NCBI RefSeq assembly: GCF_017312725.1
Contig: NZ_BOPO01000007.1
Location: forward strand, 45,599-109,598
Direction: 5' to 3'
From: Actinocatenispora comari
GTDB lineage: Bacteria > Actinomycetota > Actinomycetes > Mycobacteriales > Micromonosporaceae
Length of the DNA stretch: 64,000 nucleotides
The translations under genes were made by a program, and so were the position numbers. How positions within the stretch are numbered: position 1 is the first letter of the stretch; each line of letters begins with the position of its first letter. Shown in pieces: positions 135 through 38,014 of this stretch. Below the pieces are notes generated by a model. The model did no database searches, was not told the DNA's origin, and saw only the letters and a program-made list of their open reading frames with translations.

Positions 135-2729
135 TCACTCCGGTTCGCCGGGCTGGTAGAGCTCGCCGACCCGGGCCCGCTGCAGGCCGCGGTGGTAGGA
201 CGACAGCGTGCCCCGGACCTCCTCGGCCGAACGGTGCCGGCGCACCGGCGGCGGCGCCGCCCGGCCGGTGACGCTGCCCGGTACCAGCTGCGCCTGCGGA
301 TCCCGCCGGGGCAGACCGCCGGAGGTGGGGTGGTCGGTGAAGCGCGAGGATGCCGCGGCCAGCCGCCAACCGTCGTCCGCCGGGGACTCCCAGCGGCCCG
401 TCGCCGCGGAACGCGGCGGTGCCGCGTCGCGGGTCTCCTCCTGGATGCCGACCGCCTGCTCCGGCCGGGACGCCGGGAGCTGGAACCAGGCGGACCCGGC
501 CGGGCGCGGTTCCGGCTCGGCCCGGCGGACCGGCGGGTCGGCCACCGGTGTCGCGGCGGGGCGGGGCGGCAGCCCGATGGACGGCCGTGCCGGCGCCGCC
601 GCGCGTACCGCCCGGGTCGCCTCGACCGGCTGCCGCGCCGACGCCGGATCGGGCATCGCCCGGTACCCGGGGGATTCCAGGATGTCCTGCGGGATGACGA
701 CCTCGGCCAGGGTGCCGGTCGGTGCGGAGCGCAGTTCGACGGTCGCGCCGATGTGCTTGGCCAGCCGGCTCACCACCGCGAGGCCCATGTTCCGGGACAG
801 CGACGCATCCACCGACGGCGGGTCGGCCAGCCGCCGGTTGAGTTCGGTCAGCCGCTCGGCGCGGATGCCGGTACCGGCGTCGGTGATGGTGACGTAGACG
901 CGGTTGCCGATCCAGCAGGCCTCGGCCGTGACGATGGTGTCCGGCGGCGAGAACGAGGTCGCGTTGTCCAGCAGTTCGGCGATGAGGTGGACCAGGTCGT
1001 TGACCGCGCGACCGGCCACGTCCACGCCCATGTCGACCACGCCGAGCTCGATCCGGGTGTACTGCTCCACCTGGGACTGCGCGGCGCGCAGCACGTCGCC
1101 CAGCGCCGCCGACTCGCGGCGGGCCCGGCTCACGTCGACCCCGACCAGGACCAGCAGGTTCTCGTCGTTGCGCCGCATCTGGGTGGCCAGGTGGTCGAGG
1201 TGGAACAGCTGGCCGAGCCGGTCCGGGTTCTGCTCGCCCTGCTCCATCTGGTCGATGCGCCGGATCAGCCGGTCGACCAGCAGCTGCGAGCGGCGCGCCA
1301 GGTTGACGAACATCGTCGAGACGCTGCTGCGGAGGGTGGCCTGCTCGGCCGCGATCCGGACGGTCTCCCGGTGTACCACGTTGAACGCCTCGGACACCTG
1401 CCCGATCTCGTCCTGGCTGGGTCTGGCCACCACGTCCTCGACGCCGGCGGCGAGGTCGTCGGCGGTGAGCGTGCCGAGCGTGCCCGGGTCGCGGAGCCGG
1501 GCCACCGTCTCCGGCAGCTCCTGGTACGCGACGGACAGCGCGCCGGCCTCCAACCGGTGCAGCGACCTGGCCATGGAACGGGCGGTCAGCAGCGCGATCG
1601 CGATCGCCACCAGCACCATCAGCGACACCGCCGCCGACTCGGCGACGAGCTGGCGGAGCAGGTCGTTCTCCTGCTGCTGGACGAGGGAACGGAACTGTTC
1701 CCGGAGCCGGGTCTCGACCAGGCCGCTGAGCGCCACCCGGGTACCCATCGCCCTGGTCCACTGCGCGGTACCGACGTCGCCGGAGACCGTGCCGGAGTCG
1801 CCGGCGCTGGCCCGGCTCAGGTCACCCTCGTACCGCTGGGCGGCGATGATGTCGTTCTGGGTCTGTGCGGTGGTCATGGTGTGCCGGTCGCCGGGCAGCG
1901 GGGTGTCGGTGTTCGCCCCGACGCCGCGGCCGGCGATGGTGCGTTCCATCGCGGTGACGTGGTCGCCGTCGACGGCGTCCCGGAACGCGCGCAGCGCCTC
2001 GGCCTGCCCCTCCAGGTTGGCCTGGAACGACTCGTGCTGGGCCGAGGTCACGTCGGAGGCGCCGGCCAGCATCACGATGCCGACCTCCTGCTCCTGCGAG
2101 GTCATCTCGGTGTGCGAGGCCATCGCGCTGGCGCCACGGGCCAGGTTGGCCGCCTCGTCCGAGCCCGCCACGTTCGCCAGCGTCTGCCGGTAGGCCAGCA
2201 GGTCGGCGATCAGGCTGCGGTAGCTGAACACCGCGGTGGACAGCGGGATGATGTCGCGCTTCTCGATCGTCCGGCGCAGCGGGTCGAGCTCGTCGAGCTG
2301 GGTGTCGATGCGCCCCAGCAGGTCGCTGAGGCTGCGCTCCGAGCTGTCCACGCCGGCGCGCGCCGCCCGGTACTCCCGGAGCTGCTTGTCGGCCTTGGCG
2401 ATCTGGTCCCGGTACGCGCGTGCGGCGGCGCTCTGCTTCTGCTTCGGCGTGGTGAGCAGGGTCGCGGCGAGCGTCCGCTCGGTCTGCAGCTGGGTGGTCA
2501 GCGCGGTGGCGCGGTCGGCGAGCCGGGCCTGCCGGATCGCCTGCCGGGCCTGCATCACGTCCTGACCGGTACCGACCAGCTGGACGGCGGCGACCCCGAT
2601 CAGCGCGGTGATCGGCACGATCAGGATCAGCCCGAGCTTGGTACGGATGCGCGCGTCGCGAAGGCGGGCCACCGGACCGCGGCGCCGGTCCGTGGTCGGC
2701 CGCCCTCTGGTGCTCTGCCGTTCTGTCAC
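135..2729 (-). CDS. NIT-domain sensor histidine kinase (CvnA-like)
   Basis: Membrane sensor kinase of the nitrate/nitrite-sensing type, similar in layout to the CvnA kinases of actinomycete conservons. From the proposed GTG start (864 residues): basic N-terminus, membrane helix about 32-52, a large helical extracytoplasmic domain to about 360, second helix about 365-384, HAMP linker, a dimerisation region with FHLDHLATQMRR near 509-520, and an ATPase domain with N-box ELLDNATSFSPP near 585-596 and a DAGTGI G1 box. The last 150 or so residues are rich in Pro, Ala and Arg and look disordered. GTG 2729 is chosen because GGAGGG lies seven bases upstream; ATGs at 2753 and 2795 have no such site. 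A hairpin closes the gene, and no roadblock, DUF742 or GTPase partner is visible on the left. The signal sensed is unknown. Confidence 0.85.
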   Translation of the reverse strand: MTERQSTRGRPTTDRRRGPVARLRDARIRTKLGLILIVPITALIGVAAVQLVGTGQDVMQARQAIRQARLADRATALTTQLQTERTLAATLLTTPKQKQSAAARAYRDQIAKADKQLREYRAARAGVDSSERSLSDLLGRIDTQLDELDPLRRTIEKRDIIPLSTAVFSYRSLIADLLAYRQTLANVAGSDEAANLARGASAMASHTEMTSQEQEVGIVMLAGASDVTSAQHESFQANLEGQAEALRAFRDAVDGDHVTAMERTIAGRGVGANTDTPLPGDRHTMTTAQTQNDIIAAQRYEGDLSRASAGDSGTVSGDVGTAQWTRAMGTRVALSGLVETRLREQFRSLVQQQENDLLRQLVAESAAVSLMVLVAIAIALLTARSMARSLHRLEAGALSVAYQELPETVARLRDPGTLGTLTADDLAAGVEDVVARPSQDEIGQVSEAFNVVHRETVRIAAEQATLRSSVSTMFVNLARRSQLLVDRLIRRIDQMEQGEQNPDRLGQLFHLDHLATQMRRNDENLLVLVGVDVSRARRESAALGDVLRAAQSQVEQYTRIELGVVDMGVDVAGRAVNDLVHLIAELLDNATSFSPPDTIVTAEACWIGNRVYVTITDAGTGIRAERLTELNRRLADPPSVDASLSRNMGLAVVSRLAKHIGATVELRSAPTGTLAEVVIPQDILESPGYRAMPDPASARQPVEATRAVRAAAPARPSIGLPPRPAATPVADPPVRRAEPEPRPAGSAWFQLPASRPEQAVGIQEETRDAAPPRSAATGRWESPADDGWRLAAASSRFTDHPTSGGLPRRDPQAQLVPGSVTGRAAPPPVRRHRSAEEVRGTLSSYHRGLQRARVGELYQPGEPE

Positions 2730-2886
2730 CGGCCAACCCTCCGAGACGGACATACAACGCAGGCAACGATGAATGCTGTGATGCGGAGCCAACATCGCAA
2801 GAGCGATGAACCGCTGGATTGCATCATGAATGTCTGGGCGAATAAAGACCGTTGTCGATCTCTTCCGGGCGTTGCCCGCTGTTTCG

Positions 2887-4515
2887 TTACGAATCCGGTG
2901 GGTACATGGCGTCGATCTCCTCCCGGTAGCGCGAGTTCACCGTCTCGCGTCGGACCTTCAGCGACGCGGTGAGCTCGCCGCCCGACACGGTCAGCTCGCC
3001 GTCCAGGATGCGGAAGGCCCGGATCGACTCGGCGCGGGACACCGCCGCGTTCGCCGCGGTCACCGCGGCCTGGACCTCCGCCCGCAGCGCCGGATCCCGG
3101 TCGAACGGGCCGTCCGGCCGGCCGCGCTCGCGCAGCACCGCCGGGTCCAGGGTGACCAGGCAGGACACGAACGGCCGCCGGTCGCCGACCACCACCGCCT
3201 GGCTGATCAGCGGGTGCGCCCGCAGCCGGCTCTCCAGCGTCGTCACGTCGACGTTCTTGCCGCCGGCGGTGATCACCAGATCCTTCTTGCGCCCGGTCAG
3301 GGACAGGAAGCCGTCGTCGTCCAGCACCCCGAGGTCGCCGGTGTGCAGCCAGCCGTCCACCAGGGCGCTGGCCGTCGCCGCCGGGTTACGGTGGTAGCCA
3401 CCGAACACGCAGTCCCCGCGGACCAGCACCTCGCCGTCGGCGGCGATGCGGACCGAGACCCCGGCCAGCGGCCGGCCCACCGTACCCAGGCGCGTCGCGT
3501 CCGGGCCGTTGATGGTGGCCGGGCCGGCGACCTCGGTCAGCCCGTACCCCTCGTAGACGGCGATGCCGGCGGACCGGTAGAAGTGGCCGATCCGCTCGTC
3601 GTGCGGGGCGCCCCCGACCACGATCGCGCCGCACCGGCCGCCGAGCACCGCCGCGGCGTCGCCGTCCGGTGCCGCGTCGCGCAACTTCTCCATGTACCGG
3701 GGGACCAGCGGAAGCACCGTCGGCCGCACCGCGGCGAGGCCCGCCACGAGCTCCGCGGTACGGGGCAGGTGGGTGATGCGGACCCGGCGCAGCACCGCGG
3801 CGCACTGCATCGTGCGGGTGAAGATGTGCGCGAGCGGCAGGAACAGCACGATCGCGCCGCCGGGCGAGAACACCGGGCCGAGCCGGTCGAGGAACCCGTC
3901 CAGGTTGGACAGGAAGTTGTCGTGCGTGATCGCCACGCCCTTGGCCGGGCCGGTGGTCCCGCTGGTGTAGATGACCGTCGCGACCGAGTCCGGCGGTACC
4001 TTCCGGCGCTGCTCGAACACCTCGGCGTCGACCTCCGCCGCCCGCTCCGCGAGCCGGTCCAGTACGCCGTCGTCGAGTCGCAGCAGTCGCGGCGCCGGGC
4101 CGTCGACCGCCCGGGCCGCCGCCTCGACGACGCGCGCCTCGTCGGCGTTGCCGACGAAGCACCAGCCGGCACCGGAGTCACGCAGGATCCAGGCGACCTG
4201 CTCGACGCTCGCGGTGTCGTACACCGGCACGCTGACCGCGCCGATCGACCAGAGCGCGTAGTCGCAGACCGCCCACTCGTACCGGGTCGCGGACAGCAGG
4301 CCGATCCGGTCGCCGGCGCGGACGCCCGCGGCGATCAGCCCCTTGCCGACGGCGGTCACCCGGTCGGCGAACTCGGCCGCGGTGACCCGGCCGGCACCCT
4401 GCGACGGTGCGAACGCGACCGCGGCCGGCTGCTCGACCGCGTTGCGGTACACCGGATCGGCCATGCTGGACAGGCCGCTCGCGGCCGACACGGCAGGCGT
4501 CTGGTACTCGCGCAT
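2887..4515 (-). CDS. AMP-forming acyl-CoA synthetase (FadD-like)
   Basis: Adenylates a carboxylic acid, probably a long-chain fatty acid, and transfers it to CoA. The ANL-superfamily motifs are all present: P-loop YTSGTTGPAKG at 183-193, YGLTE at 324-328, GWLHTGDLG near 388-396, the hinge/A8 loop GRKKDLVITAGGKNV at 408-422, and a C-terminal Lys in the ASLKVRR stretch that fits the catalytic lysine. At 542 residues it is a little shorter than the ~600 usual for the long-chain (FadD15-like) group. The ATG overlaps the stop codon of the upstream methyltransferase by one base (TGATG), so the two are translationally coupled. Substrate length cannot be read from the sequence. Confidence 0.88.
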   Translation of the reverse strand: MREYQTPAVSAASGLSSMADPVYRNAVEQPAAVAFAPSQGAGRVTAAEFADRVTAVGKGLIAAGVRAGDRIGLLSATRYEWAVCDYALWSIGAVSVPVYDTASVEQVAWILRDSGAGWCFVGNADEARVVEAAARAVDGPAPRLLRLDDGVLDRLAERAAEVDAEVFEQRRKVPPDSVATVIYTSGTTGPAKGVAITHDNFLSNLDGFLDRLGPVFSPGGAIVLFLPLAHIFTRTMQCAAVLRRVRITHLPRTAELVAGLAAVRPTVLPLVPRYMEKLRDAAPDGDAAAVLGGRCGAIVVGGAPHDERIGHFYRSAGIAVYEGYGLTEVAGPATINGPDATRLGTVGRPLAGVSVRIAADGEVLVRGDCVFGGYHRNPAATASALVDGWLHTGDLGVLDDDGFLSLTGRKKDLVITAGGKNVDVTTLESRLRAHPLISQAVVVGDRRPFVSCLVTLDPAVLRERGRPDGPFDRDPALRAEVQAAVTAANAAVSRAESIRAFRILDGELTVSGGELTASLKVRRETVNSRYREEIDAMYPPDS

Positions 4516-5327
4516 CAGCGCTCACCCCGACCCGGGTCGCCGCCCGGACGCCGCCCCACCGTGGTGTGCATCAGCCAGGCCGAGATCACGAAGCCGGGAT
4601 CGTCGAGCAGTCGGTGCAGCGTGCCGAGCTGCTCGTCGGTCATCCCGTCGGCGCGCAGCGTCGGCTCGATCTGGTACGCCAACGCCTGGTACAGGCCGCA
4701 TCCCGCGCTGCCGCCCGGCCAGGAACGGCCGAACACGACCGTACGCTCGGGCGCCAGCCCCGCGGTGCGCATCGCGGCGTAGGCGTACCTGGTCCAGCCG
4801 AGGTCCGCGCCGTTGCGCCGGCCGACGCTCCGGATGATGTCGTTGAACAGCTCGAACGTCTTCGCATCGGCGGGATCCGGGACCGCGAGGACGGGATCGC
4901 GCTCCCGGCAGTCGCAGTCCGACAGCACGATCAGCCCGCCCGGGCGCAGCGCGGAGACCAGCCGGCCCAGCACCTCGTTCCGGTTCGGCAGGTGCACGAA
5001 CACCATCCGGGCGTGGATCAGGTCGTACTCGCCCGCCGGGACCGGATCGCGGCGGACGTCGTGCCGCAGCACCGTCAGGTTGTCGCGCTCGGTGAGGTAC
5101 CGCGGATCGACGTCGGTGGCGGTGACGTGCCCCTCCGGGCCGACCCGGTCGGCGAGCCAGCCCGCGATCGAGCCGGCGCCGGCACCGATGTCCAGGCACC
5201 GCCAGCCGCGGCCCACCCCGTACTCGGTGAGGATCGACGTGGTGTGGCCGTCGAACGCCTCGCCGAGCTGATCGAGCTGTCTCGCGCCGGCCGGGCCGGC
5301 GTTGTCGAAGCTGTATCCGGTAGGCAT
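4515..5327 (-). CDS. Class I SAM-dependent methyltransferase
   Basis: 270-residue Rossmann-fold methyltransferase. SAM motif I is CLDIGAGAGSIAGWLADRV near residues 44-62; an acidic residue at the end of strand 2 (TATDVDPRYL), a motif-II-like EYDLIHARMVFVHL and a post-II LRPGGLIVLSD follow in normal order. It belongs to the UbiE/COQ5-like general group, and the acceptor cannot be inferred. It is the upstream partner of the acyl-CoA synthetase (one-base stop/start overlap). The neighbouring thioesterase gene in the same direction, 144 bp upstream, makes a lipid or polyketide-like acyl substrate conceivable but unproven. Confidence 0.82.
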   Translation of the reverse strand: MPTGYSFDNAGPAGARQLDQLGEAFDGHTTSILTEYGVGRGWRCLDIGAGAGSIAGWLADRVGPEGHVTATDVDPRYLTERDNLTVLRHDVRRDPVPAGEYDLIHARMVFVHLPNRNEVLGRLVSALRPGGLIVLSDCDCRERDPVLAVPDPADAKTFELFNDIIRSVGRRNGADLGWTRYAYAAMRTAGLAPERTVVFGRSWPGGSAGCGLYQALAYQIEPTLRADGMTDEQLGTLHRLLDDPGFVISAWLMHTTVGRRPGGDPGRGER

Positions 5328-5471
5328 CTGGGCGGCTCCAGTCCGAACGTTCCCTTCGGGAAGTGGATACGCGTACCTGCCGCCTCGCGCGCTATGCGGT
5401 GGATGCGCTCGGAGCCGGGATTTGCAATGTTTGACCAGCGGTACCCCGTCCGCAACCCTCGCCGGCGCCCG

Positions 5472-5924
5472 TTACCGCGCCGAGATCTCGTCCCCGCGGG
5501 CCACCGTCGAAGGTCTAGGGAGATCCCGGATCAGACAGGTCAGTCGGGCCGTGCAGACCGTCCGGCCGTCGTCGTCGGTGAGCACGATCCGGTACGTGGC
5601 CAGCGTGTCGCCGCGATGCACCGGGGTCGCGGTCCCGGTGATGGTGCCGCGCACCGCGGGCCGGTGGTGCGTGGCGTTGATCTCGACGCCGACCGCGCGC
5701 CGCGTCGGCCCTGCATGCAGGGCCGCAGCCATGGTGCCGAGCGTCTCGGCCAGCACGCAGGACACGCCGCCGTGCAGCATCCCGTACGACTGGGTGTTGC
5801 CGGCGACGGGCATGCTGCCGACCACGCGGTCGGGGTCGGCCTGCCGGATCTCGATGCCGGTGCGTTCGACGGCCGGACCGAGCGGGCCGATGCCGGCGAT
5901 GGCGTTCGGATCGAACGGCTGCAC
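5472..5924 (-). CDS. PaaI-family hotdog thioesterase
   Basis: 150-residue single hotdog domain acyl-CoA thioesterase. The signature MLHGGVSCVLAETLG (HGG followed by the catalytic acidic residue on the long helix) and the strand pattern ending LTCLIRDLPRP match the PaaI/YbdB-like group. The GTG start at 5924 is preferred over any upstream codon because AAGGAGG lies eight bases before it. It reads in the same direction as the methyltransferase and acyl-CoA synthetase genes, so it may hydrolyse or proofread products of that ligase. Divergent from the alpha/beta hydrolase at 6124, with a 199-bp shared promoter region that includes AT-richer patches. Confidence 0.85.
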   Translation of the reverse strand: MQPFDPNAIAGIGPLGPAVERTGIEIRQADPDRVVGSMPVAGNTQSYGMLHGGVSCVLAETLGTMAAALHAGPTRRAVGVEINATHHRPAVRGTITGTATPVHRGDTLATYRIVLTDDDGRTVCTARLTCLIRDLPRPSTVARGDEISAR

Positions 5925-6123
5925 GGGCGGTCCTCCTTCGATATTTTCCCCTCGTGATCGCCGCGCCGCGCGACGGAGTTTCGCCGGGGGTCTTTCGGGG
6001 ACGACGTGGCGTAGGCAAAATAGGCGCTCGCCAGGAACCGTGCAAAAGCATCGTCTGGGATTCCCGACGCGACCGCGGTTCGTATCTCGCAACCGGCCCG
6101 AGAACGCACGGAAGGCGAAGAGC

Positions 6124-6852
6124 ATGACAAGCAACGACAACACGACGGTGGTCCTGGTACACGGCGCCTGGCACAGCCCGTGGTGCTGGAACCCGGTGGT
6201 CGCCGAGCTCGACCAGTACGGCATCCACAGCGTCACCGTCGACCTGCCGAGCTGCCGCACCGTCGACGGTGCGCCGGCCGGCGACATGCACGCCGACGCC
6301 GCCGAGATCCGGAACACCCTGGACCGCTACGAGGACGTGGTGCTGGTGGCGCACTCGTACGGGGGGATCCCGGCGACCGAGGGGGCGGCCGGCCATCCGG
6401 CGGTGCGGCACCTGGTCTACGTCGCCGCGTACAACGCCGACGAGGGCGAGTCGCTCGGCGGCTACGCGGTGCCGAACCCGGGGCCGGACGTGCTCAACCC
6501 GCCGGCCGACCTGACGATGGGCGAGAACGGCATGATGGGCGTCCGGACGGACCGGGCCGCGACGCTGTTCTACAACGGCATGCCGGCGGAGGCCGCCGAG
6601 GCGGCGGTGGCGCAGCTGCGGCCGATGTCCGCCGCGGTGCTGTCTCAGACCCCGACCGCGATCGCGTGGCGCGACATCCCGTCGACCTACGTGCTGACCG
6701 GCCAGGACAACGCGACGCCGACCGTGGTGCAGCGCGAGCTGTGCAAGCGGGCGGGCACCGTGATCGAGCTCGGTGACTCCTGCCACTCGCCGATGCTGGC
6801 CGCGCCGAAGCGGATCGCCGACATCATCGGCTCGGTGGTCGCCGGGCGGTAA
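6124..6852 (+). CDS. Alpha/beta hydrolase (esterase-like)
   Basis: 242-residue cytoplasmic alpha/beta hydrolase. It opens with the oxyanion-hole strand VVLVHGAWHSPWCWNPV near 9-25; the nucleophile elbow is AHSYGG near 78-83, and DSCHSPM near the C-terminus supplies the likely catalytic histidine. The HGAW..W pattern and short cap resemble the group containing plant-type salicylate esterases and hydroxynitrile lyases, and bacterial homologues of unknown substrate. There is no signal peptide. The start is ATG 6124, preceded by GGAAGGCGAAG. A strong hairpin follows the stop, so it is probably monocistronic. Confidence 0.8.
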   Translation: MTSNDNTTVVLVHGAWHSPWCWNPVVAELDQYGIHSVTVDLPSCRTVDGAPAGDMHADAAEIRNTLDRYEDVVLVAHSYGGIPATEGAAGHPAVRHLVYVAAYNADEGESLGGYAVPNPGPDVLNPPADLTMGENGMMGVRTDRAATLFYNGMPAEAAEAAVAQLRPMSAAVLSQTPTAIAWRDIPSTYVLTGQDNATPTVVQRELCKRAGTVIELGDSCHSPMLAAPKRIADIIGSVVAGR

Positions 6853-6870
6853 CAGTCCACAGTGGAGAGA

Positions 6871-6897
6871 ACGGGTCGGCCACGGTGGCCGGCCCGT
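6871..6897 (+). terminator. Hairpin terminator after the alpha/beta hydrolase
   Basis: Arms ACGGGTCGGCCAC and GTGGCCGGCCCGT (one G-T wobble) around a single central G, 18 bases past the stop. It separates the hydrolase from the binding-protein operon that starts at 6929. Confidence 0.6.
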
Positions 6898-6928
6898 GGC
6901 AACGTCGTGCCTGTCGGAGGGAAGCGTC

Positions 6929-8134
6929 TTGGGCGTCAGGAGAGTGCTGACCGGACTCGCGGTACCAGGTGTGCTGCTGCTCCTGGCGGCCGGCTGCACC
7001 AGCGACGGCGGCAAGAGCGTGTCGGCCGCCCCGATCAGGATCGGCTTCATCGCCGACATGTCCGGGAACCAGAAGGGCATCGGCCGGTCCATGCGCGACG
7101 GTCTCGACCTCTACCTCAAGCTGCACGGCGGGCGGCTCGGTGGACGGCGGGTGCAGGTCGTGCAGCGCGACGCCGGCGACGACCCCACCAGTACCAAGGC
7201 GGCCAAGGCGGAGCAGAGCCTGCTGAACCAGCGGGATCTGCTCGCCATCACCGGCATCAGCGACGTGCGCACCGTGCTCGCCATGCAGAAGCCGGTCACC
7301 GAGCGCAAGCTGCCGCTGGTCAGCACGCTGGCCTGCACCGACCAGGTACCCGACCTCACCTACCTGTGGTGCGCTTCCAACCTCACCTCCGATCCGCCGG
7401 AGGCGCTCGGCGCGTACGTCGCCAAGCACGCGGGCGGGCGGGTCTACGTCCTCGGTACCGATCTCGGCCCCGCCAAGGGCGACACCACGCAGACGTTCGT
7501 CCGCACCTTCAAGGCCGCCGGCGGCAAGCTCGCCAACCCCGACGGGCAGCCCACCTACGCGCCGTACAGCGACAAGGCCAGTTACCGGTCCTACCTGACC
7601 GAGGCGCAACAGAACGGCGCCAAGGCCATCTACGTCTGGGCGACCGGGATGCAGGCGGTCCAGTTCGTCAAGGAGTACCAGAAGCTCGACCTCAAGTCGC
7701 AGGGCATCAAGGTGTACGCCTCGGGGCCGCTCACCTGTTGCGACCTGCTGCAGGTCGAGGGCAGTGCGGCGCTGGGCATCTACAGCTCGCTGGACTACAC
7801 GCCGACGCTGGACAACGACGCGAACCGGGAGTTCGTGGTCGCCTACCAGCACGCGTACGGGACCGCGCCGAACGAGCCCGCGGCGTACGGCTACAGCGCG
7901 GCGTCCATTCTCGACCAGGCGATCTCGTCGGTGACCGCGGACGGCCGGGCGTTGACCGGCAAGGCGGTGAACACCGCGATCGCCAACCTCGGGATCCAGA
8001 ACGATCCGCGCGGGAGCTGGCAGTTCAGCAAGAAGCACGCGCCGGTGCAGAAGTTCTACCTGCGCCAGGTGCGGATGGACGGTTCCGTGCTGTCCAACGT
8101 CCTCGTCAACGAGCTACCCACGATCGGGGAGTGA
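6929..8134 (+). CDS. Substrate-binding lipoprotein (branched-chain amino acid ABC type)
   Basis: 401-residue type I periplasmic-binding protein of the LivJ/UrtA-like family (Peripla_BP_6). The signal peptide RRVLTGLAVPGVLLLLAAGC ends in a lipobox with Cys23, so the mature protein is anchored to the outer face of the membrane. The fold starts at IRIGFIADMSGNQKGIG, and the two-lobe pattern runs to the end. TTG 6929 is taken as the start because GGAGGGAAG lies about five bases upstream and no ATG or GTG is better placed. No permease or ATPase genes are near, so it is an orphan binding protein. Seven bases separate it from the PrnB-like gene, which implies one transcript and possibly uptake or sensing of that enzyme's substrate. 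The ligand is unknown. Confidence 0.82.
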   Translation: MGVRRVLTGLAVPGVLLLLAAGCTSDGGKSVSAAPIRIGFIADMSGNQKGIGRSMRDGLDLYLKLHGGRLGGRRVQVVQRDAGDDPTSTKAAKAEQSLLNQRDLLAITGISDVRTVLAMQKPVTERKLPLVSTLACTDQVPDLTYLWCASNLTSDPPEALGAYVAKHAGGRVYVLGTDLGPAKGDTTQTFVRTFKAAGGKLANPDGQPTYAPYSDKASYRSYLTEAQQNGAKAIYVWATGMQAVQFVKEYQKLDLKSQGIKVYASGPLTCCDLLQVEGSAALGIYSSLDYTPTLDNDANREFVVAYQHAYGTAPNEPAAYGYSAASILDQAISSVTADGRALTGKAVNTAIANLGIQNDPRGSWQFSKKHAPVQKFYLRQVRMDGSVLSNVLVNELPTIGE

Positions 8135-8141
8135 CGCCGCG

Positions 8142-9257
8142 ATGTCCGGGCCGGGCAACCATCGCGACAGCAGGCTGGTGCGCGAGCTCGATCCGCTCGA
8201 CGCGGACGAGACGTACCGCCGGCTACCCGAGATGAACGCCGCCGCCGACGTGCCCGCACTGGTCGGTGCGTTGCGCCGGCTGGCCGGCAACGCCGCGGCG
8301 GTGACCGACGGCTCGCCGTACGAGTGCCGCGCCGCGATGCGCGATCTCGGCCTGCTGCTCGGTTCGGTCAAGCGGCACGGCGTGGAGCCGGTGACGGCGG
8401 TACCGGAGGCCGAGCCGGTGCTGCTGCGCCTCGCGGCCCGCGGCGACGTGGTGCCCCGGGACACCGTGCATCACTACAGCGTCTGGAACCCGTACGGCGA
8501 GCGGCAACGGAGCTACACTGGATCGTCGCAGGAGACCGCGCTGATCGACTCGGTCCGGCTCAGCCTGCCCCGGCTGTCGCAGGCGGTCGAGCTGTGCGAT
8601 CCGCTGACGCGGGCCGAGCTGACCGATCCGGAGTTCCTCACCGCGATGGGCAGCTTCCGCGCCCACCTGGCCTCCCTGGACGAGGCGATCGAACTGGTGA
8701 TCGGCCGGGTGACGCCGGCGTTCTTCGCGAACGAGCTGCGGCCGTACTTCGACGAGGTGACCGTCGACGGTCGGGTCTGGCGCGGCGGGGCCGGCGCCGG
8801 GCTGCCGATGCCGTTGCTGGATCTGACGCTGTGGGCGGCCGACCACGATCCGGACGACGAGGACTCCGTGGGTTACGCGGAGTTCTGGGCCGGTGGAGTC
8901 GCCTACGCCCTGCCGGAATGGCGGCGCCGGTACGCCCAGCTGGCCGGGGTGCCGTCGCTCGTCGCGCGGGTGACCGCGGCCCTGGACGAGGTCGGCGACG
9001 GCCCGATGGACGACCGGCTGTGGGCCGCCGCCACCGCGGTCGAGCAGTCGTTGCGCGCCCTGCTCTCGTTTCGTGCCAAGCATCTCACCGTCGCCCGCAA
9101 GTCCTACCAGGAGGACGTCCGGCTGTTCCCGGTGGGCAGCAGCGGGGGCAGCGTGGAGTTGCTGGCCAGCATCGTGCGGCTGACCCGGGACAACGCCCGG
9201 GTGGTCCGGCCGCGGCGGGCCGAGCGAGCCGATCCGGAGCGGATGTCTCGTGCCTGA
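8142..9257 (+). CDS. PrnB-like haem enzyme (tryptophan-rearranging family)
   Basis: 371-residue member of the family of PrnB, the pyrrolnitrin enzyme that converts 7-chlorotryptophan to monodechloroaminopyrrolnitrin and has a tryptophan-2,3-dioxygenase-like haem fold. Visible family blocks are AAMRDLGLLLGSVKRHGVEP (64-83), EAEPVLLRLA, VWNPYGERQRSYTG (114-127) and SFRAKHLTVA, where His314 fits the proximal haem ligand (His313 in PrnB as I recall). It follows the binding lipoprotein by seven bases and overlaps the flavin monooxygenase by eight, so all three are coupled. No flavin halogenase is in the window, so the natural substrate is more likely an unchlorinated tryptophan or relative. Family assignment is fairly secure; the reaction is inference. 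Confidence 0.82.
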   Translation: MSGPGNHRDSRLVRELDPLDADETYRRLPEMNAAADVPALVGALRRLAGNAAAVTDGSPYECRAAMRDLGLLLGSVKRHGVEPVTAVPEAEPVLLRLAARGDVVPRDTVHHYSVWNPYGERQRSYTGSSQETALIDSVRLSLPRLSQAVELCDPLTRAELTDPEFLTAMGSFRAHLASLDEAIELVIGRVTPAFFANELRPYFDEVTVDGRVWRGGAGAGLPMPLLDLTLWAADHDPDDEDSVGYAEFWAGGVAYALPEWRRRYAQLAGVPSLVARVTAALDEVGDGPMDDRLWAAATAVEQSLRALLSFRAKHLTVARKSYQEDVRLFPVGSSGGSVELLASIVRLTRDNARVVRPRRAERADPERMSRA

Positions 9258-10416
9258 CGCCGTCGTGGTCGGCGCCGGCTGTGCCGGCGCGCCGACGGCG
9301 ATGCTGCTGGCGCGGGCCGGTTACGACGTCACCCTGGTCGATCGGGCCCGGTTCCCGCGGGACACCCTGTCCACGCACTACCTGCAGCAGCCCGCGGTCG
9401 CGCTGCTGCGCGACTGGGGGCTGCTGGACGCCGTGCTCGGCACCGGTTGCCCGCCCATCGCGCAACTGCGGTACCGGGTGGCCGACGTCGCCATCGACGG
9501 TCCGATGTGGACGTTCGAGGGCATCGGCTACGCGCTCGGCCCGCGCCGGTACCTGCTGGACCAGCTGCTGGTGGACGCCGCGGTGGCCGCCGGGGTGGAC
9601 TTCCGCCCCGGTCACCGGGTCACCGACCTGATCGTCGAGGACGACCGCGTGGTCGGGGTACGGCTGCGCACCGAGGGCGGCCCGTACGAGCTGCGCGCGC
9701 CGCTGGTCGTCGGCGCGGACGGGATGCGCTCGGTGGTGGCGTCCCGGGTGGGTGCCGCCGTGCACGTCACCGACCCGCCCCGGACCTGCGTCTACTACAG
9801 CTACTGGCCCGGTGTCTCGGACCGGTTCGAGATCCACGAGGCACCCGGCAGCTGGATCGGCGTGGTGCCCAGCAACGACGGCCTGACCCTGGTCGCCGCG
9901 TACTTCCCGCAGTCCGCGTACCGGGGGGTGCGGCTCGACGCCGGCGCCGTGTACCTGGCCGCGGTGCGCGACACGGCGCCGGACGTGCACGCCCGCATGG
10001 TGGCGGTGCGGCGCGCCGAACGGATCTACGGCACCGGCGCGCAGCTCAACTTCTTCCGGCAACCGGCCGGCCCCGGCTGGGTACTGGTCGGCGATGCCGG
10101 CCACCACAAGGACTCGCTGACCGCGCGCGGCATCACCGACGCGTTCCACCAGGCGAGGTTGCTCGCCGACAGCGTCGGTTCCGGTCTGGACCTGCACGAT
10201 CCGGACCGGCTGTGCGCCGCGCTGCGGCGGTTCGAGCGCGGTCGCGACGAGCTGCTGACCGACGAGTACCGGCACACCCTGAAGCTCGCCCGGTTGGCCC
10301 CGTCGGCCCGCCGGCTCGCGTCGTTGCGGGCCGCCGCCGAGGATCCGGAGCAGGCGGCCGGCTTCTTCCGTTCGCTGTGCGGGCACCCGTTCCAGGACCG
10401 GATGGCCCCACCGTGA
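9250..10416 (+). CDS. FAD-dependent monooxygenase/oxidoreductase
   Basis: 388-residue group A flavoprotein. FAD-binding GAGCAGAPTAMLLA is at 8-21, followed by the acidic strand end TLVDRARFPRDTLSTHY, the DG motif VGADGMRSVVA near 156-166, and the GD motif LVGDAGHHKDSLTARGITDAF near 278-298. It most resembles the geranylgeranyl-reductase/PHBH-like branch. The WxWxIP motif of flavin-dependent tryptophan halogenases is absent. The start is GTG 9250, inside the end of the PrnB-like gene, which points to translational coupling and a shared pathway. It ends seven bases before the 3' end of the convergent paaA-like gene. Confidence 0.8.
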   Translation: MPDAVVVGAGCAGAPTAMLLARAGYDVTLVDRARFPRDTLSTHYLQQPAVALLRDWGLLDAVLGTGCPPIAQLRYRVADVAIDGPMWTFEGIGYALGPRRYLLDQLLVDAAVAAGVDFRPGHRVTDLIVEDDRVVGVRLRTEGGPYELRAPLVVGADGMRSVVASRVGAAVHVTDPPRTCVYYSYWPGVSDRFEIHEAPGSWIGVVPSNDGLTLVAAYFPQSAYRGVRLDAGAVYLAAVRDTAPDVHARMVAVRRAERIYGTGAQLNFFRQPAGPGWVLVGDAGHHKDSLTARGITDAFHQARLLADSVGSGLDLHDPDRLCAALRRFERGRDELLTDEYRHTLKLARLAPSARRLASLRAAAEDPEQAAGFFRSLCGHPFQDRMAPP

Positions 10417-10423
10417 CGACCGG

Positions 10424-11473
10424 TCAGCCGGCGCGGCGGCGGCGCTGCTTCTCCGCGTGCGCCAGCGCGGACTCCCGCACCCAGGCGCCCTCGTCGTGGG
10501 TGCGCCGGCGGCGCTCCATCCGTTGCCGGTTGCACGGCCCGTACCCCTTGAGCACGGTGGTGAGCGCATCGAAGTCGGGCAGGGTGAAGTCCCAGTGGCC
10601 GCGTTCGGCGTCGTACCGCAGCGCCTGGTCCGGCAGCGTCAGGCCGAGCGAGCCCACCTGCTCGGCGATCACGTCGACGAACTTCTGCCGTACCTCGTCG
10701 TTGGTCAGCCGCTTGATCTTCCACGCCATCGAGCGGGACGTGTTGCGCGACGCGCGGTCGGGCAGGCCGAACAGCGCCAGCGCCCGGTACCACCAGCGAT
10801 CGACGGCCTGCTGCGCCATCCGGTGCTGTGCCGGGGTGCCGCCGGACAGCGTGTGCAGGATCGAGTAGCCCTGCCGCTGGTGGAACGACTCCTCCTTGCA
10901 GATCCGGACCATCGCCCGCGCGTACGGCCCGTACGAGCAGCGGCACAGCGGCACCTGGTTGGCGATCGCCGCGCCGTCCAGCAGCCAGCCGATCGCGCCG
11001 ATGTCCGCCCAGCTCGCGGCCGGGAAGTTGAACACGACGCTGTAGTGCTGCCGGCCGTCGTGCAACTGGTCGAGCAGTTCGCGGCGGGTCACCCCGAGCG
11101 TCTCGGCCGCCGCGTACAGGTACATCGCGTGGCCGGCCTCGTCCTGCACCTTGGCCAGCAGCGCCGTCTTGCGCCGCAGGCTCGGCGCCCGGCTCAGCCA
11201 GTTCGACTCCGGCTGCATGCCCATCAGCTCGGAGTGCGCGTGCTGGGCGATCTGCCGGATCATCATCGACCGGTACGCGTCGGGCATCCAGTCGCGGGGC
11301 TCGATCTTCGCGTCGGCGGCGACCATGTCCTCGAAGTACCGCTGCAGCACGGCCTCGTCCGCACCGGCCGCAACGTCCGGCGAACCGGCGCGGCCGGCCT
11401 GCTCCCGGCTCGCCTCGGCCGGACCGACCAGCCGGAGCCGTTCACCGCCCGCGTCGTGGGGACCCTGTGGCAT
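10424..11473 (-). CDS. paaA: Orphan PaaA: phenylacetyl-CoA epoxidase catalytic subunit
   Basis: 349-residue ferritin-like diiron protein matching PaaA, the catalytic subunit of the ring 1,2-epoxidase of phenylacetyl-CoA. Typical blocks are [37 protein letters not shown] (Glu82), [11 protein letters not shown] (Glu112, His115), [12 protein letters not shown] (Glu195, His198) and [11 protein letters not shown]. These supply the carboxylate and histidine iron ligands. It carries about 40 extra N-terminal residues compared with E. coli PaaA. Normally paaB, C, D and E follow directly; here the gene ends seven bases from a convergent gene and none of the partners is in the window. Either they are elsewhere or this copy has a different partner. 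The start ATG 11473 has a weak GGGGAGAG site upstream. Confidence 0.88.
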
Positions 11474-11779
11474 GGCTTCTCTCCCCGGCGGCGATGCAGG
11501 AACAACGTGACCGACGTGATGTTTCTAACCGAACCGCCCATCCCTGTCAACGAACCGACAGGGACCTGCCACGCCTCGCCGCCACCCCACCCGGTACCGA
11601 GGTCCGAAGTGGACGGTCGCGGGACCGGATGGCCGGCTCGGTGACCCGGCTGGTCCACACGTCGGCGTCCGCCCCGCGGTCGGCGCGTGCAGGGCTCCGT
11701 CCCACGTGATGCGATGCGCGGGCCGGGAGTCGGTGGGATGTGCGAGGGTGCTGGCGTGGCGACGGAGAGGCGGGGGCGA
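11474..11779. other. Divergent intergenic region (paaA / ThiO-like)
   Basis: 306 bases without a gene, holding the promoters of two divergent genes. Near the paaA end are TAACCGAACCG, which looks like one half of a TetR-type operator, and the 8-bp inverted repeat listed separately. The right half (11600-11779) contains nothing I can name beyond a possible alternative GTG start at 11756 for the oxidase. Confidence 0.5.
11541..11564. promoter_or_regulatory. Perfect 8-8-8 inverted repeat upstream of paaA
   Basis: TCCCTGTC and GACAGGGA face each other across the 8-base spacer AACGAACC, about 70 bases before the paaA start. The symmetry and place fit a dimeric repressor site. The regulator is not known, and no regulator gene is adjacent. 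Confidence 0.45.
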
Positions 11780-12940
11780 ATGGGCGACGTCGTGGTGGTC
11801 GGTGGTGGGCTGGTGGGGCTGGCGGCGGCGTGGCGGATCGCCGGCCGCGGCGGCCGGGTCACCGTGGTCGAGCGGGACGCGCCGGTACGGTTCACCTCCC
11901 GCGCCGCGGCGGCGATGATCGCGCCGGTCGGGTACCGCGAGCCGGCCGACGACGCGTTCCTGCACCTGCGGCTGGACGCGCAACGCGAGTGGGCGCCGTT
12001 CGCCGCCGAGCTGGTCGAGCAGACCGGGATCGACCCCGCGTACCGGCGGATCGGGTCGCTGGTCGCGGCCACCGACGAGGACGGGCTGGCGCGGGTGGCG
12101 GCGCTGCGCGAGTTCCACGCCGAGCTGGGGATCGAGTCGTCGCTGGTGGATGCGACGGCGGCCGCGGCACTCGAACCCGAGCTGCGCGGTGCGCTCGGTG
12201 GGCTGCACGTACCGGGGGAGGGTTGTGTCGACCCGGAGGCGGCCGGCCGGGCGCTGGTCGCCGGGATCCACGCCCGCGGCGGTACGGTCTGGTCCGGCGC
12301 GCCGGTCGCCGAGCTGTGCGGTGACGCGGCCCGGATCAGCGGGGTGCGGCTGGTCGACGGCTCGGTGCTCGCCGCCGACGTGGTCCTGGTGGCCGCCGGC
12401 GCGGCGAGCTGCGCGCTGCCGGGAGTGCCGGCGGCGGCGCGGTTTCCGCTCCGCGCGGTGAAGGGGCAGTCGGTCCTGGTGCGGGACCGACCCGGGAACC
12501 CGTTGGTACGCACCGTGTTGCGCGCCGGGATCAACGTGGTGCCGCGCGGCGACGGGCGGCTGATGATCGCCGGCACGGTCGAGGACGACGCGGCGCCGGG
12601 GGACCGCAACACCGTGCTCGGCACGTACCAGGTGGTGCAGCGGGCGGTCGAGGCGGTGCCGGCGTTGGCGGGCTGCGAGGTGGACGCCTGGTGTGTCGGG
12701 CAGCGGCCGGTGGCGCCGGACGACGCGCCGGTGCTGGGGCCGAGCGGGGTTCCCGGGCTGTGGTGGTCGACCGGCCACTCGTACTACGGGATCCTGTTGT
12801 CGGCGTTGACCGGGCGGCTGGTGGCCGACGCGCTCGCCGGCGACGCCGCGGCCACCGACCGGATCGGACGGTTCACCGTGGACCGGTTCGCCGCCGGTTC
12901 GCCCCGCTACACCGCACTGGACCACGACCGGCACGCGTAG
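11780..12940 (+). CDS. ThiO-like FAD-dependent glycine/amino-acid oxidase
   Basis: 386-residue DAO-family flavoenzyme. The dinucleotide fold GDVVVVGGGLVGLAAAWRIA starts at residue 2, followed by RAAAAMIAPVGY (the ThiO-like AAGML-type region), VKGQSVLVR and, near the end, GQRPVAPDDAPVLG and TGHSYYGILLS, the substrate/FAD-proximal segment of glycine oxidases. ThiO makes the imine for thiazole synthesis, but no thiS, thiG or thiE is nearby and I see no TPP riboswitch upstream, so a thiamine role is only possible. ATG 11780 follows GGAGAGGCGGGGGCGA; GTG 11756 is an alternative that would add eight residues. Confidence 0.78.
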   Translation: MGDVVVVGGGLVGLAAAWRIAGRGGRVTVVERDAPVRFTSRAAAAMIAPVGYREPADDAFLHLRLDAQREWAPFAAELVEQTGIDPAYRRIGSLVAATDEDGLARVAALREFHAELGIESSLVDATAAAALEPELRGALGGLHVPGEGCVDPEAAGRALVAGIHARGGTVWSGAPVAELCGDAARISGVRLVDGSVLAADVVLVAAGAASCALPGVPAAARFPLRAVKGQSVLVRDRPGNPLVRTVLRAGINVVPRGDGRLMIAGTVEDDAAPGDRNTVLGTYQVVQRAVEAVPALAGCEVDAWCVGQRPVAPDDAPVLGPSGVPGLWWSTGHSYYGILLSALTGRLVADALAGDAAATDRIGRFTVDRFAAGSPRYTALDHDRHA

Positions 12941-13060
12941 GGGTGGTGTCCGCCAGGCCGGTCACCCGGCTGTGCCGGGCCGTTCGCCGTGTCGTTCTGT
13001 GCCGGGCTCGCTCGTCGCGTCGTTCCCCAGGAATTCCGGGCGAACGGAGCTGTCGGCGTC

Positions 13061-13894
13061 TCAGCGGCGGGCGATGGTGACGATCTCCCGGCTGGCCGGG
13101 GTGATCGGACCGCGCTGCCAGTCGCCGTACTGCGCCTCGACGGTGAAACCGGCGTCGGCCAGGAAACGGTGGAGCGGCGGCACGTCGAGGAAGCGCAGCC
13201 GGGCCCGGTCGACCCGCAGTACGGTGCCGTCCTGGTCGGCAGTCGTCTCGGTGAAGGTGACGACGCCGGCCTCGACGGACTCGACGTCGTGCCAGGTGCG
13301 CAGCGTCCGACCCGCGGCGTCGACCACGTCCCCGGCGTTGGCGGGAATCCAGTCGCGCCAGGCGCGGGCCTGCGGATGCCGGGTCTCGAAGGCGAACCGG
13401 CCGCCCGGCGCCAGCGCCGCGTGGATCGCCGTCAGCGAGGCGCGGAGGTCCTCGTCGGTGACCAGCACCTGGAACGCGTGGCCGGTCATCACGGCGAGGT
13501 CGAACCCGCACCCGGTACGCGCGTCGGCCTCGGCGGCAGTGGCCTGGAGCCACTCGATGTCGGTACGGCGCCGGGCGCGGTCGAGCGCGGCGCGGTCCGG
13601 GTCCAGGCCGACGAGCCGGCCGCGATGGCCGTGCTCGCGGGCGTAGGCGAGCATCGAGCCGGTACCGCAGCCGACGTCGAGCACCGACGCGGCGGCCATC
13701 ACCAGTTCGTGGTGGAAGGCGTCCCCGCGGTAGGTGCCGGGGTCCCAGGGGTTGACCAGGTCGTAGAGGGCGGCGGCGTCCGCGTCGGAGTACACGCGGG
13801 CAGTGTCGAGGCCGGCCCGGTGCGGCGGCAACCGCTTTCCGGCGGTTATCGGGGTGTTGACAGGATTTGTCCGATGCGCCTTACTGGATGACAT
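13061..13894 (-). CDS. Class I SAM-dependent methyltransferase
   Basis: Up to 277 residues. The methyltransferase core starts with VLDVGCGTGSMLAYAREHG; GLDPDRAALDRARR, FDLAVMTGHAFQVL and LAPGGRFAFETRHPQARAW follow in the order of small-molecule SAM methyltransferases. The C-terminal beta-rich part (TLRTWHDVESVEAGVVTFTET) is typical of this common actinobacterial group whose acceptor is unknown. The exact start is uncertain: ATG 13894 would leave only 33 bases to the divergent protease gene and would place that gene's apparent -35 box inside this coding region, so the GTG of VYSDADAAALYDL, further in, may be the true start. It converges on the ThiO-like gene. Confidence 0.75.
   Translation of the reverse strand: MSSSKAHRTNPVNTPITAGKRLPPHRAGLDTARVYSDADAAALYDLVNPWDPGTYRGDAFHHELVMAAASVLDVGCGTGSMLAYAREHGHRGRLVGLDPDRAALDRARRRTDIEWLQATAAEADARTGCGFDLAVMTGHAFQVLVTDEDLRASLTAIHAALAPGGRFAFETRHPQARAWRDWIPANAGDVVDAAGRTLRTWHDVESVEAGVVTFTETTADQDGTVLRVDRARLRFLDVPPLHRFLADAGFTVEAQYGDWQRGPITPASREIVTIARR
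13857..13886 (+). promoter_or_regulatory. Candidate promoter of the secreted protease
   Basis: A perfect -35 hexamer TTGACA (13857-13862) is followed after 18 bases by TTACTG (13881-13886), a weak -10. The protease ATG is 41 bases further on. It lies within the longest possible reading of the divergent methyltransferase gene. Confidence 0.4.
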
Positions 13895-13927
13895 CGTTGT
13901 CACCACACCCCCTCGAAGGTGATCGAC

Positions 13928-15001
13928 ATGAGACAGATCCCCCGCCTCCTGCTCGCCGTCGGCCTCGCCGCCGCCGCGGTGGCGCCCGCCACGACCGTCG
14001 CGCACGCTGCCCCGCCCGCCGGGCCGACCACCTCGGTTCGGCAGCACTCGGCGCAGATCGACGTGGCCGACCAGCGGGCCGCGCGCGCGTTCTGGACCCC
14101 GGCCCGCCTCGCCGCGGCCGTCGACCTGGACGCGCTGCCCACCTCGGGTGCCGCCCGAGATGCCATGCCTGCCCCGGGCATCGGCCGGGACGCGCTGCCC
14201 ACCGCCGCCTCGCCCGGCCGTACCGGAACGCGACCCGCGGCCACCGGCACCCCGTCCGCGGTACCCCCGGCGTTGCCGGCCACCGGGGCGCCGGCGACCG
14301 GTGGGGTACGTCCGCAGGCCACCTCGCCGCAGCACTGGACCGGCGGCGGGCTCGTCTCCAGTACCGCCGGGAAGGTCTTCTTCTCCAACTCGTCCGGCAC
14401 GTACGCCTGCTCCGGCGACGCGGTCAACAGCGGCAACAAGTCGATCGTCGCCACCGCCGGGCACTGCGTGGTCGACGCGAACACCGGTGAGGTGTACCAG
14501 AACTGGGTGTTCATCCCCGGTTACGACCACGGCAACCGTCCACATGGGACGTTCACGGCCAGCTCGCTGCACTGGATGTCGCAGCGCATCGGCGACCCCG
14601 ATCCCACCTGGGACGCCGCGTTCGCCACGATGAGCCCGCTGAACGGCACGAAGCTCGTGGACGCGGTCGGCGGCGAGGGCATCGGCTTCGACCAGGCCCC
14701 CGGTCAGTACGTCTACTCGTTCGGTTACGGCGGCTCCGACGCCGAGGGCAACGGCGAGCAGCTCAACTGGTGCGCCGGTACCGAGTTCTTCGAGAGCGGA
14801 CACCCCGGCGGCGGCATCTGGGGCATCGACTGCGTGCAGACCGGCGGCTCGTCCGGCGGTCCGTTCCTGCAGAACTTCGACACCTCGACCGGTATCGGTA
14901 CCCAGATCGGCAACATCAGCGTCAGTAGCGGCGACAACGAGTGGCATCCGTACTACGGGTCCGAGGCGCACGCCGCCTACAACGCCGCCGACGCGGCCTG
15001 A
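13928..15001 (+). CDS. Secreted trypsin-like serine protease (V8/glutamyl endopeptidase-like)
   Basis: 357-residue exported S1-fold protease. A Sec signal peptide runs to about residue 27 (ATTVAHA). A long Ala/Pro/Thr-rich propeptide to about 130 contains a partly repeated RDAMPAPGIGRDALP stretch. The catalytic domain carries TAGHC (His179), WDAAFATM (Asp229) and GGSSGGPF (Ser309). Cys161/Cys180 and Cys282/Cys302 are placed as disulfide pairs. ATG 13928 is used because GAAGGTG lies just upstream; an in-frame GTG nine bases earlier is less likely. The last codons start a 25-bp tandem repeat that runs past the stop. The protease probably serves extracellular protein degradation, like the chitinase next door. 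Confidence 0.87.
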   Translation: MRQIPRLLLAVGLAAAAVAPATTVAHAAPPAGPTTSVRQHSAQIDVADQRAARAFWTPARLAAAVDLDALPTSGAARDAMPAPGIGRDALPTAASPGRTGTRPAATGTPSAVPPALPATGAPATGGVRPQATSPQHWTGGGLVSSTAGKVFFSNSSGTYACSGDAVNSGNKSIVATAGHCVVDANTGEVYQNWVFIPGYDHGNRPHGTFTASSLHWMSQRIGDPDPTWDAAFATMSPLNGTKLVDAVGGEGIGFDQAPGQYVYSFGYGGSDAEGNGEQLNWCAGTEFFESGHPGGGIWGIDCVQTGGSSGGPFLQNFDTSTGIGTQIGNISVSSGDNEWHPYYGSEAHAAYNAADAA

Positions 15002-15073
15002 CCGCCACGCCGCCGACGCGGCCTGACCGCCACGCCGCCGACGCGGCCTGACCGCCACGCCGCCGACGCGGCG
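14982..15073 (+). repeat. 25-bp tandem repeat starting inside the protease 3' end
   Basis: The unit ACGCCGCCGACGCGGCCTGA plus CCGCC recurs at 14982, 15007, 15032 and, in part, 15057. The first copy encodes the last protease codons and its stop (TGA 14999-15001), so the array is a tandem expansion of the gene's own terminus. Downstream (15096-15154) a 10-bp inverted repeat CCGACCGCCG/CGGCGGTCGG with a long loop may act as terminator. Confidence 0.85.
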
Positions 15074-15191
15074 ACGGCGCCGCCCGCGGGGCGGTCCGAC
15101 CGCCGCCCGATCACCCGGTCGTGCGGCGGCCCGGGCGGTGCGGCCGGCGGTCGGGTCGGGGCGGGGCTGGCGGGTTGCCGCCACCCGATTA

Positions 15192-15215
15192 CGTTTAAGA
15201 ATCTTTACTGTTAAT
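15192..15215. promoter_or_regulatory. AT-rich imperfect palindrome before the chitinase gene
   Basis: CGTTTAAGAATCTTTACTG followed by TTAATC is an island of A and T in very GC-rich DNA, with opposed GTTTAAGA and TCTTTAC arms, about 40 bases upstream of the chitinase start. It could be the core promoter or the site of a carbon-responsive regulator. It does not match the DasR consensus I remember. Confidence 0.35.
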
Positions 15216-15253
15216 CTCACGGCCTGTCCACTCCGTACCGGTTTGGAGAAGCC

Positions 15254-16603: not shown

Positions 16604-16652
16604 CCCGGCCGCGGGCACGACCGCCCGACGTGCGCCCTTTCTGCCAGACCTC

Positions 16653-17309: not shown

Positions 17310-17532
17310 GGAGACTCCCGAAGATCTCGTGATGGTTGGGGGCGGTTCGAGCATGTCCGACGGCACCGGTTCGCGCCTCCCGCTGCGGAGGGGGCGCCGG
17401 CTCCTGCCTCCCGCCGCGGAGGGCACCGCCGCTCCCTCCCGGGTGGGAGCCCGCGCGGCGCCGTCGCCGGAGCTTTCCGGCACCCCGGCCGGTCCCGCGC
17501 ACGATCCGGGCCCGGTGTGGTGAGCTGAGCAG

Positions 17533-29082: not shown

Positions 29083-29096
29083 GGGGGCGTGACGAC

Positions 29097-29780: not shown

Positions 29781-29782
29781 TC

Positions 29783-32717: not shown

Positions 32718-32719
32718 GC

Positions 32720-34033
<1,314 letters not shown>

Positions 34034-34034
34034 C

Positions 34035-38011: not shown

Positions 38012-38014
38012 GTC

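Follow-up and report, generated by a model that had tools for sequence, protein, structure and literature searches.

A PrnB-clade haem enzyme and its flavoprotein neighbour, without a halogenase, in Actinocatenispora comari

What might an enzyme of the PrnB family, known from pyrrolnitrin, be doing next to a flavoprotein and with no evident halogenase at hand? The question is raised by a 64,000-nucleotide (nt) stretch of the Actinocatenispora comari genome (NZ_BOPO01000007.1; "the window" is this entire stretch, and coordinates are window positions) in which three forward-strand genes are closely spaced: they encode a substrate-binding lipoprotein (6929..8134), a PrnB-like haem enzyme (8142..9257) and a flavin adenine dinucleotide (FAD) monooxygenase (9250..10416). 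A sequence-only reading of this DNA had proposed that the three form one unit, serving an undescribed route from tryptophan or a related amino acid, with the lipoprotein perhaps dedicated to capture of the precursor. The open reading frames, the 7-base gap between the first two genes (8135-8141) and the 8-base overlap between the last two (9250-9257) are as that reading gave them. The unit is present in three members of the genus, the window genome, G050 and G070; gap and overlap are the same in all three, and the ratio of nonsynonymous to synonymous substitution rates (dN/dS) is 0.14-0.30 across the three genes in these species, a measure by which all three are under purifying selection. The fourth genus member, G012, has no PrnB match, and no match to the monooxygenase at 1e-30. 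A scan for promoters and terminators found none. The answer offered here, to which we would give an even chance, is that the pair at 8142-10416 carries out a PrnB-type rearrangement of unchlorinated L-tryptophan (L-Trp), followed by hydroxylation by the monooxygenase.

The haem enzyme

That 8142..9257 encodes a PrnB-clade haem enzyme (371 residues, predicted to be His-ligated) is confirmed by sequence comparison. The protein scores 124 bits against the PrnB family PF08933 (cut-off 27) and matches the crystallised PrnB chains 2v7i and 9dfg with E values of 1.7e-57 and 1.9e-48. Assignment by the Pfam name alone was dropped: PF08933 spans two far clades. Surveys at four levels found a match to it in 20 of 250 genomes (family), 23 of 397 (order), 2 of 396 (phylum) and 3 of 4 (genus); these sets overlap, and the matches come from 35 distinct genomes in all, including that of the window. 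Neighbourhoods were compared for the 34 others, for four of six plasmid records and for one Glycomyces contig, and the tree has 39 rows, a Glycomyces duplicate (L043) being left out. Twenty-nine of these rows form a single clade (support 100/100) that includes the window protein together with PrnB of the prnABCD clusters of Burkholderia pyrrocinia and Azotobacter salinestris, to both of which it is ~35% identical. The other ten rows make up a far clade, and phmmer scores between the clades do not exceed about 36 bits: the ten score above 260 bits against PF08933, and yet share 16.5-19.2% identity with the window protein, which scores 124.

In the alignment His314 of the window protein stands at residue 313 of the 2v7i chain, and it is invariant in 29/29 clade rows; the axial haem-ligand histidine of PfPrnB is numbered His313. 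Ser333, the putative carboxylate site, is equally invariant (29/29) and is kept in one of the ten far-clade rows, while Tyr112 is kept in 27/29, Burkholderia PrnB having Val there. If the numbering of the 9dfg chain is offset by 20, both positions fit, Ser333 and Tyr112 corresponding to FbPrnB Ser319 and Tyr104, for whose assigned roles the excerpted text of PMC11791213 is the source; the loop residue Ser319 is described there as holding the substrate carboxylate. The columns of FbPrnB Gly210/211, the carboxylate Gly-Gly, read Gly218-Ala219 in the window protein and Ala-Val in Burkholderia PrnB. Invariant in 29/29 rows are, further, Gly332, Gly335, Arg123, Arg200, Asn116, Asp68, Ser75 and Pro222. 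The sequence-only reading had placed the protein in the PrnB family and pointed to its haem-ligand histidine: grouping with genuine PrnB and the invariance of His314 uphold both, and the residues of the histidine pocket are kept in the alignment.

The far clade merits a remark of its own. Its ten rows also carry the Pfam name PrnB, and nine of them lack the substrate-loop serine; in four loci (L070 9400-11696, L037, L038 and L039) the next gene is for a pyridoxal phosphate (PLP) enzyme of the class-V aminotransferase type, which in L070, the one locus scored, is kynureninase-like at a score below the NCBIfam cut-off. The family name is possibly misleading here, and the clade may stand for a further way of oxidising tryptophan.

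A flavoprotein after prnB

Within the 29-row clade the actinobacterial members form a sub-clade of 23 rows (support 98/97), and it is here that the flavoprotein recurs: an FAD monooxygenase (FMO) gene lies directly downstream, on the same strand, of 18 of the 23 prnB-like genes, and directly after none of the six prnB genes of the clade members outside this group. The 23 loci hold 23 FMO genes of the two families concerned among 393 gene calls, five of them outside the slot. The occupant of the slot is PhzS-type in 15 of the 18 and window-type in three, all of the window's genus; the two are separate families (support 100/100), and the slot has therefore been filled twice. The PhzS-type member at the Glycomyces artemisiae locus L002 has as its nearest solved relatives 2rgj and 3c96 (about 2e-84), both presumably PhzS, and passes NCBIfam PRK07538 with 518 bits (cut-off 400). 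By the gene calls of this analysis the PhzS-type gene overlaps the prnB-like gene by 4 bases in 10 of 15 cases. Directly after PrnB, four loci (L046 7402-9552, L048, L051 and L054) have an FMO of ~710 residues; in L046, on which alone Pfam was run, the FMO is joined in one protein to an LCM-type methyltransferase. The three-gene association proposed by the sequence-only reading thus survives in one half: the coupling of PrnB to a flavoprotein that does not keep the halogenase motif holds, and is broader than claimed, another family filling the slot in most loci, while the lipoprotein is found beside PrnB in 3/23 loci only, those of the window's genus.

The window-type FMO, for its part, has a wider life. 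Relatives sought in 160 genomes were found at 1e-30 or better in 71, three of these being the genus members; identity is 85-92% within the genus and at most 54% outside it. Among the neighbourhoods of ten outside-genus kin, AMP-binding enzymes occur in nine and ketosynthases in five, the ketosynthases of two being 49-51% identical to a PrnB-cluster ketosynthase, and three have a PhyH enzyme that shares 60% identity with the one in the PrnB locus L063. The window's FMO thus comes from a family at home in similar biosynthetic clusters, and was recruited separately.

Where, then, is the halogenase? Nine neighbouring window proteins were scanned and yielded none, save a weak Trp_halogenase match of the flavoprotein itself that is taken up below; a search of the window genome gave no strong match, the best being 48 bits as against 540 for a Glycomyces halogenase, so that no PrnA-grade enzyme is found in it, as the sequence-only reading had supposed. 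The same genome search also matches in 5 of 14 control genomes, and a weak match in it therefore means little. A PrnD Rieske N-oxygenase is likewise absent from the nine neighbours scanned, a genome-wide search for it not having been made. The likeness to the pyrrolnitrin systems of Pseudomonas, Burkholderia and Azotobacter lies in the shared clade and in the retained axial histidine and carboxylate-binding serine; the difference lies in the company kept, the window having no PrnA or PrnC beside PrnB and instead a lipoprotein gene upstream and an FAD monooxygenase gene downstream.

Closer parallels are the Streptomyces NBC_01717 plasmid (annotated as DoxX - PrnB - flavin-dependent oxidoreductase - ketosynthase) and the Glycomyces artemisiae cluster, in which an FAD monooxygenase gene also directly follows the PrnB-clade gene; their FMO is PhzS-type, with ketosynthase (KS), KASIII or DoxX genes nearby, whereas the window has the other FMO family and lacks those genes. 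Of the 23 loci, 11 have KS-type genes, 6 have KASIII and 3 have a tryptophan halogenase. At three of the 23 the 20-kb stretch includes genes of tryptophan synthesis: L060 (trpC, trpB, trpA and trpD), L047 (trpB and trpA) and L053, whose genes are TrpC-, TrpD-, TrpE- and TrpG-like (TrpC and TrpD by similarity to L060, TrpE below the NCBIfam cut-off). In the open-access literature searched, subscription papers being outside its scope, neither a halogenase-free PrnB-flavoprotein pairing nor a lineage change of the flavoprotein was found, and to that extent the route is, as had been suggested, undescribed: the haem enzyme belongs to a known family, and its halogenase-free pairing with a flavoprotein is new to that literature.

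The Glycomyces locus L002 is of interest in its own right. Its cluster (8277-17491) reads halogenase - PrnB - PhzS-type FMO - flavin reductase-like - DoxX - KS - KASIII - acyl carrier protein (ACP)-like - antiporter-like, the "-like" labels having been assigned by eye. The tryptophan halogenase is the one that scores 540 bits against PF04820, and it has no NCBIfam match at 1e-20; halogenase, FMO, DoxX, KS and KASIII genes are also present in L044 and L045, two genomes of the Glycomyces group. The cluster is a candidate for a chlorinated, tryptophan-derived pathway.

What the pair may make

The genome has no strong halogenase; L-Trp is reported to serve PrnB as an alternative substrate (PMC11791213, in its excerpted text), and unchlorinated L-Trp is the likeliest substrate of the window's haem enzyme. 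Excerpts of another paper (PMC11112847) report a putative product of prnB in Corynebacterium glutamicum in vivo. The haem enzyme would bind unchlorinated L-Trp through the amino group and the carboxylate, and would rearrange it oxidatively, most likely giving a product of the 3-(2-aminophenyl)pyrrole type; the single-component FAD monooxygenase, translated from its overlapping start on what is presumably a shared transcript, would then hydroxylate the rearranged product. As product of the window pair we infer an arylpyrrole. The pair would be an actinobacterial, halogenase-free version of the PrnB pathway in which an unrelated monooxygenase has, in the window's genus, taken the slot of the PhzS-type partner usual for the clade. 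One can think, tentatively and at somewhat less than an even chance, of a more general scheme: the actinobacterial PrnB clade may stand for undescribed tryptophan-derived pathways in which PrnB rearrangement is followed by flavoprotein hydroxylation in place of chlorination, the flavoprotein having entered on at least two occasions, from families unrelated to each other; the smallest of these pathways would be the window's, two enzymes leading to a hydroxylated arylpyrrole. The actinobacterial relatives, in which a flavoprotein partner recurs and some of which have tryptophan genes of their own, would be a source of new enzymes that can be tested and, probably, of new metabolites of the arylpyrrole type; the recurrence of the pair in related bacteria points to unexplored tryptophan-derived natural products, and the window version, comprising two enzyme genes only, should be easy to examine in a heterologous host.

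A number of observations weigh against this scheme. The FMO slot is empty in five of the 23 actinobacterial clade members. In the pyrrolnitrin clusters of Burkholderia and Azotobacter it is prnC, encoding a flavin-dependent halogenase, that follows prnB, and a flavoenzyme after prnB is therefore less special than the 0/6 outside the actinobacterial group suggests. No PrnB match was found among the gene calls in any of the ten neighbourhoods of outside kin of the window-type FMO: the family occurs elsewhere without PrnB, and its PrnB link therefore depends on one genus. A neighbouring KS, present at 11 of the 20 clade loci outside the genus (KASIII at 6), is missing from the window pair, whose product may therefore differ. 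The flavoprotein (388 residues) belongs to a halogenase-like group: against Trp_halogenase (PF04820) it narrowly passes with 22.8 bits (cut-off 21), far from the 540 bits of the clear Glycomyces halogenase, and its best solved relatives are halogenases, 3e1t (2.4e-16) being, we take it, CndH, an enzyme dependent on FADH2 (reduced FAD). Finally, the excerpted text of PMC11791213 reports that purified PrnB alone yields no product in vitro.

Might the flavoprotein then be a halogenase itself? Against FAD_binding_3 (PF01494) it scores 84.2 bits (cut-off 22). The motif of flavin-dependent halogenases is WxWxIP; where 3e1t has GWFWYIP the alignment gives the window protein SWIGVVP, and in this it differs from the FADH2-dependent halogenases. 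With the motif not kept, the candidate was dropped, some doubt remaining from the narrow PF04820 match.

The haem enzyme could also be a simple oxygenase, a hydroxylase of tryptophan or of peptidyl-tryptophan, with the flavoprotein adding a second oxidation. His-ligated haem aromatic oxygenases such as TyrH, SfmD and MarE do oxygenate aromatic substrates (PMC11791213, as excerpted), and passages of PMC13036774 describe Trp 5-hydroxylation by Luz15 and the prediction of a Trp hydroxylase in PdnC, a PrnB homologue; the window protein, however, groups with genuine PrnB and not with the far PF08933 clade (in a tree without Luz15 and PdnC), and it retains the substrate-loop serine, so that this alternative strikes us as unlikely. 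That the genes are chance neighbours without joint function is scarcely credible: window-type FMO homologues are, to be sure, common in the family (the 71 of 160 genomes noted above), but gap and overlap are identical and purifying selection is indicated in three species, and the slot holds an FMO in 18/23 loci.

Two further alternatives bring in the neighbours. The unit could belong to an island for the degradation of aromatic acids or tryptophan, made up of the lipoprotein, an acyl-CoA ligase, a thioesterase, a second PaaA (PaaA2, 10424-11473) and the paaABCDE operon, the last ending ~0.35 kb before the window; ligase and PaaA2 are, like PrnB, without a clear orthologue in the G012 stretches examined, and the nearest solved relatives of the lipoprotein, 4ey3 (1.4e-30) and 4evq (1.8e-27), are presumably aromatic-acid binders. 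Elsewhere, however, the clade keeps company with ketosynthases, ACP-like proteins, a halogenase and tryptophan biosynthesis genes, which speaks for making rather than degrading, and so do the AMP-binding enzymes (9/10) and ketosynthases (5/10) beside kin of the window FMO; degradation seems to us distinctly unlikely. Capture of tryptophan, or of the product, by the lipoprotein on behalf of the pathway is very unlikely. The identical 7-base gap in three species and a dN/dS of 0.14-0.16, the lowest of the three genes, argue for it, but the lipoprotein accompanies PrnB in 3/23 loci, its relatives sit with a NIT-domain kinase and/or a methyltransferase, and without PrnB, in 8/8 neighbourhoods, and none of the 16 matches to the permease family BPD_transp_2 in the genome lies on the window's contig; the dedicated precursor capture of the sequence-only reading is accordingly not supported.

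The lipoprotein and the neighbouring genes

The lipoprotein (401 residues; TTG start, LAAGC lipobox) scores 203 bits against Peripla_BP_6. A gene-call heuristic starts it at 6971, but with the start at 6929 the alignment to both genus relatives begins at residue 1; outside the genus the best relatives are 42-43% identical. At the Streptomyces plasmid locus no lipoprotein is annotated beside PrnB, in a gene table that is possibly incomplete. The lipoprotein of the window resembles 4ey3 and 4evq as its nearest solved relatives, on which a literature search turned up nothing pertinent, and differs in having no permease gene in view beside it, its neighbours being a kinase and a methyltransferase: gene lists inspected by eye have no permease or ATPase genes around it, and its description as an orphan stands.

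What do its relatives keep beside them? The eight neighbourhoods are those of seven of 27 outside-genus loci and of G012. Homologues of the window's NIT-domain sensor histidine kinase (135..2672, reverse strand), a possible partner of the lipoprotein, were found by BLAST in six, and homologues of its S-adenosylmethionine (SAM) methyltransferase (4515..5327, reverse strand) in six; in L153 a NIT kinase overlooked by BLAST was confirmed by Pfam. Branched-chain-type permeases are Pfam-confirmed in L153 and L158, and similar genes were seen by eye in L154, L156 and L159; in L155, L157 and L160 none was noticed beside the lipoprotein relative. The relatives keep these neighbours and the window has both, and the lipoprotein is for that reason best read as a putative part of the adjacent kinase-methyltransferase module for sensing or transport, whether as a sensor or as an in-trans transporter part. 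The spacing of its gene before prnB is nevertheless that of an operon.

Ahead of the lipoprotein gene, at a distance of 76 bases, is a gene for an alpha/beta hydrolase (6124..6852, forward strand). In G050 (L050 7341-8065) it is split over two frames, with lipoprotein, PrnB and FMO open, and the hydrolase is therefore possibly not essential to the unit. Adjoining the unit, and divergent from it, is a run of reverse-strand genes, for an acyl-CoA-ligase-type AMP-binding enzyme (2887..4515), the methyltransferase and a hotdog thioesterase (5472..5924), with the NIT-domain kinase beyond. The sequence-only reading mentions neither the hydrolase nor any of these. Similarity to the ligase and the methyltransferase in L061 and L063-L066 was considered as a conserved neighbourhood and dropped, identities being 30-34%. 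PaaA2 (10424..11473, reverse strand), an orphan second PaaA paralogue convergent with the unit, shares 69% identity with the paaA of the same genome; ligase, thioesterase and PaaA2 belong to the same genus-level stretch.

The paa operon itself (PaaA and PaaC identified by Pfam, the other genes by eye) ends upstream of the window. All three genomes that carry the PrnB unit have PaaA2, and the G012 stretches examined show ordinary paaA only: the G012 match to PaaA2 (69%) is ordinary paaA, which is 85% identical to that of the window genome, as paaB is 88%, while an oxidase and a methyltransferase downstream of the unit are 68% identical. In the partial G012 DNA, kinase, ligase, methyltransferase and lipoprotein have matches of 36-43%, the thioesterase one of 63% and the hydrolase none. 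These comparisons suggest an accessory block of ~11 kb (genes from 135 to 11473) beside the paa operon, its limits to be read in the light of the partial G012 DNA and of likely orthologues some of which are only 68% identical. No empty site is evident in G012, where the matches lie on different contigs and the paa operon meets a contig end. By its surroundings the unit seems to sit in core chromosome, not in a large biosynthetic cluster. Further along the window, 28723-44822 is by eye a nuo (NADH dehydrogenase) operon.

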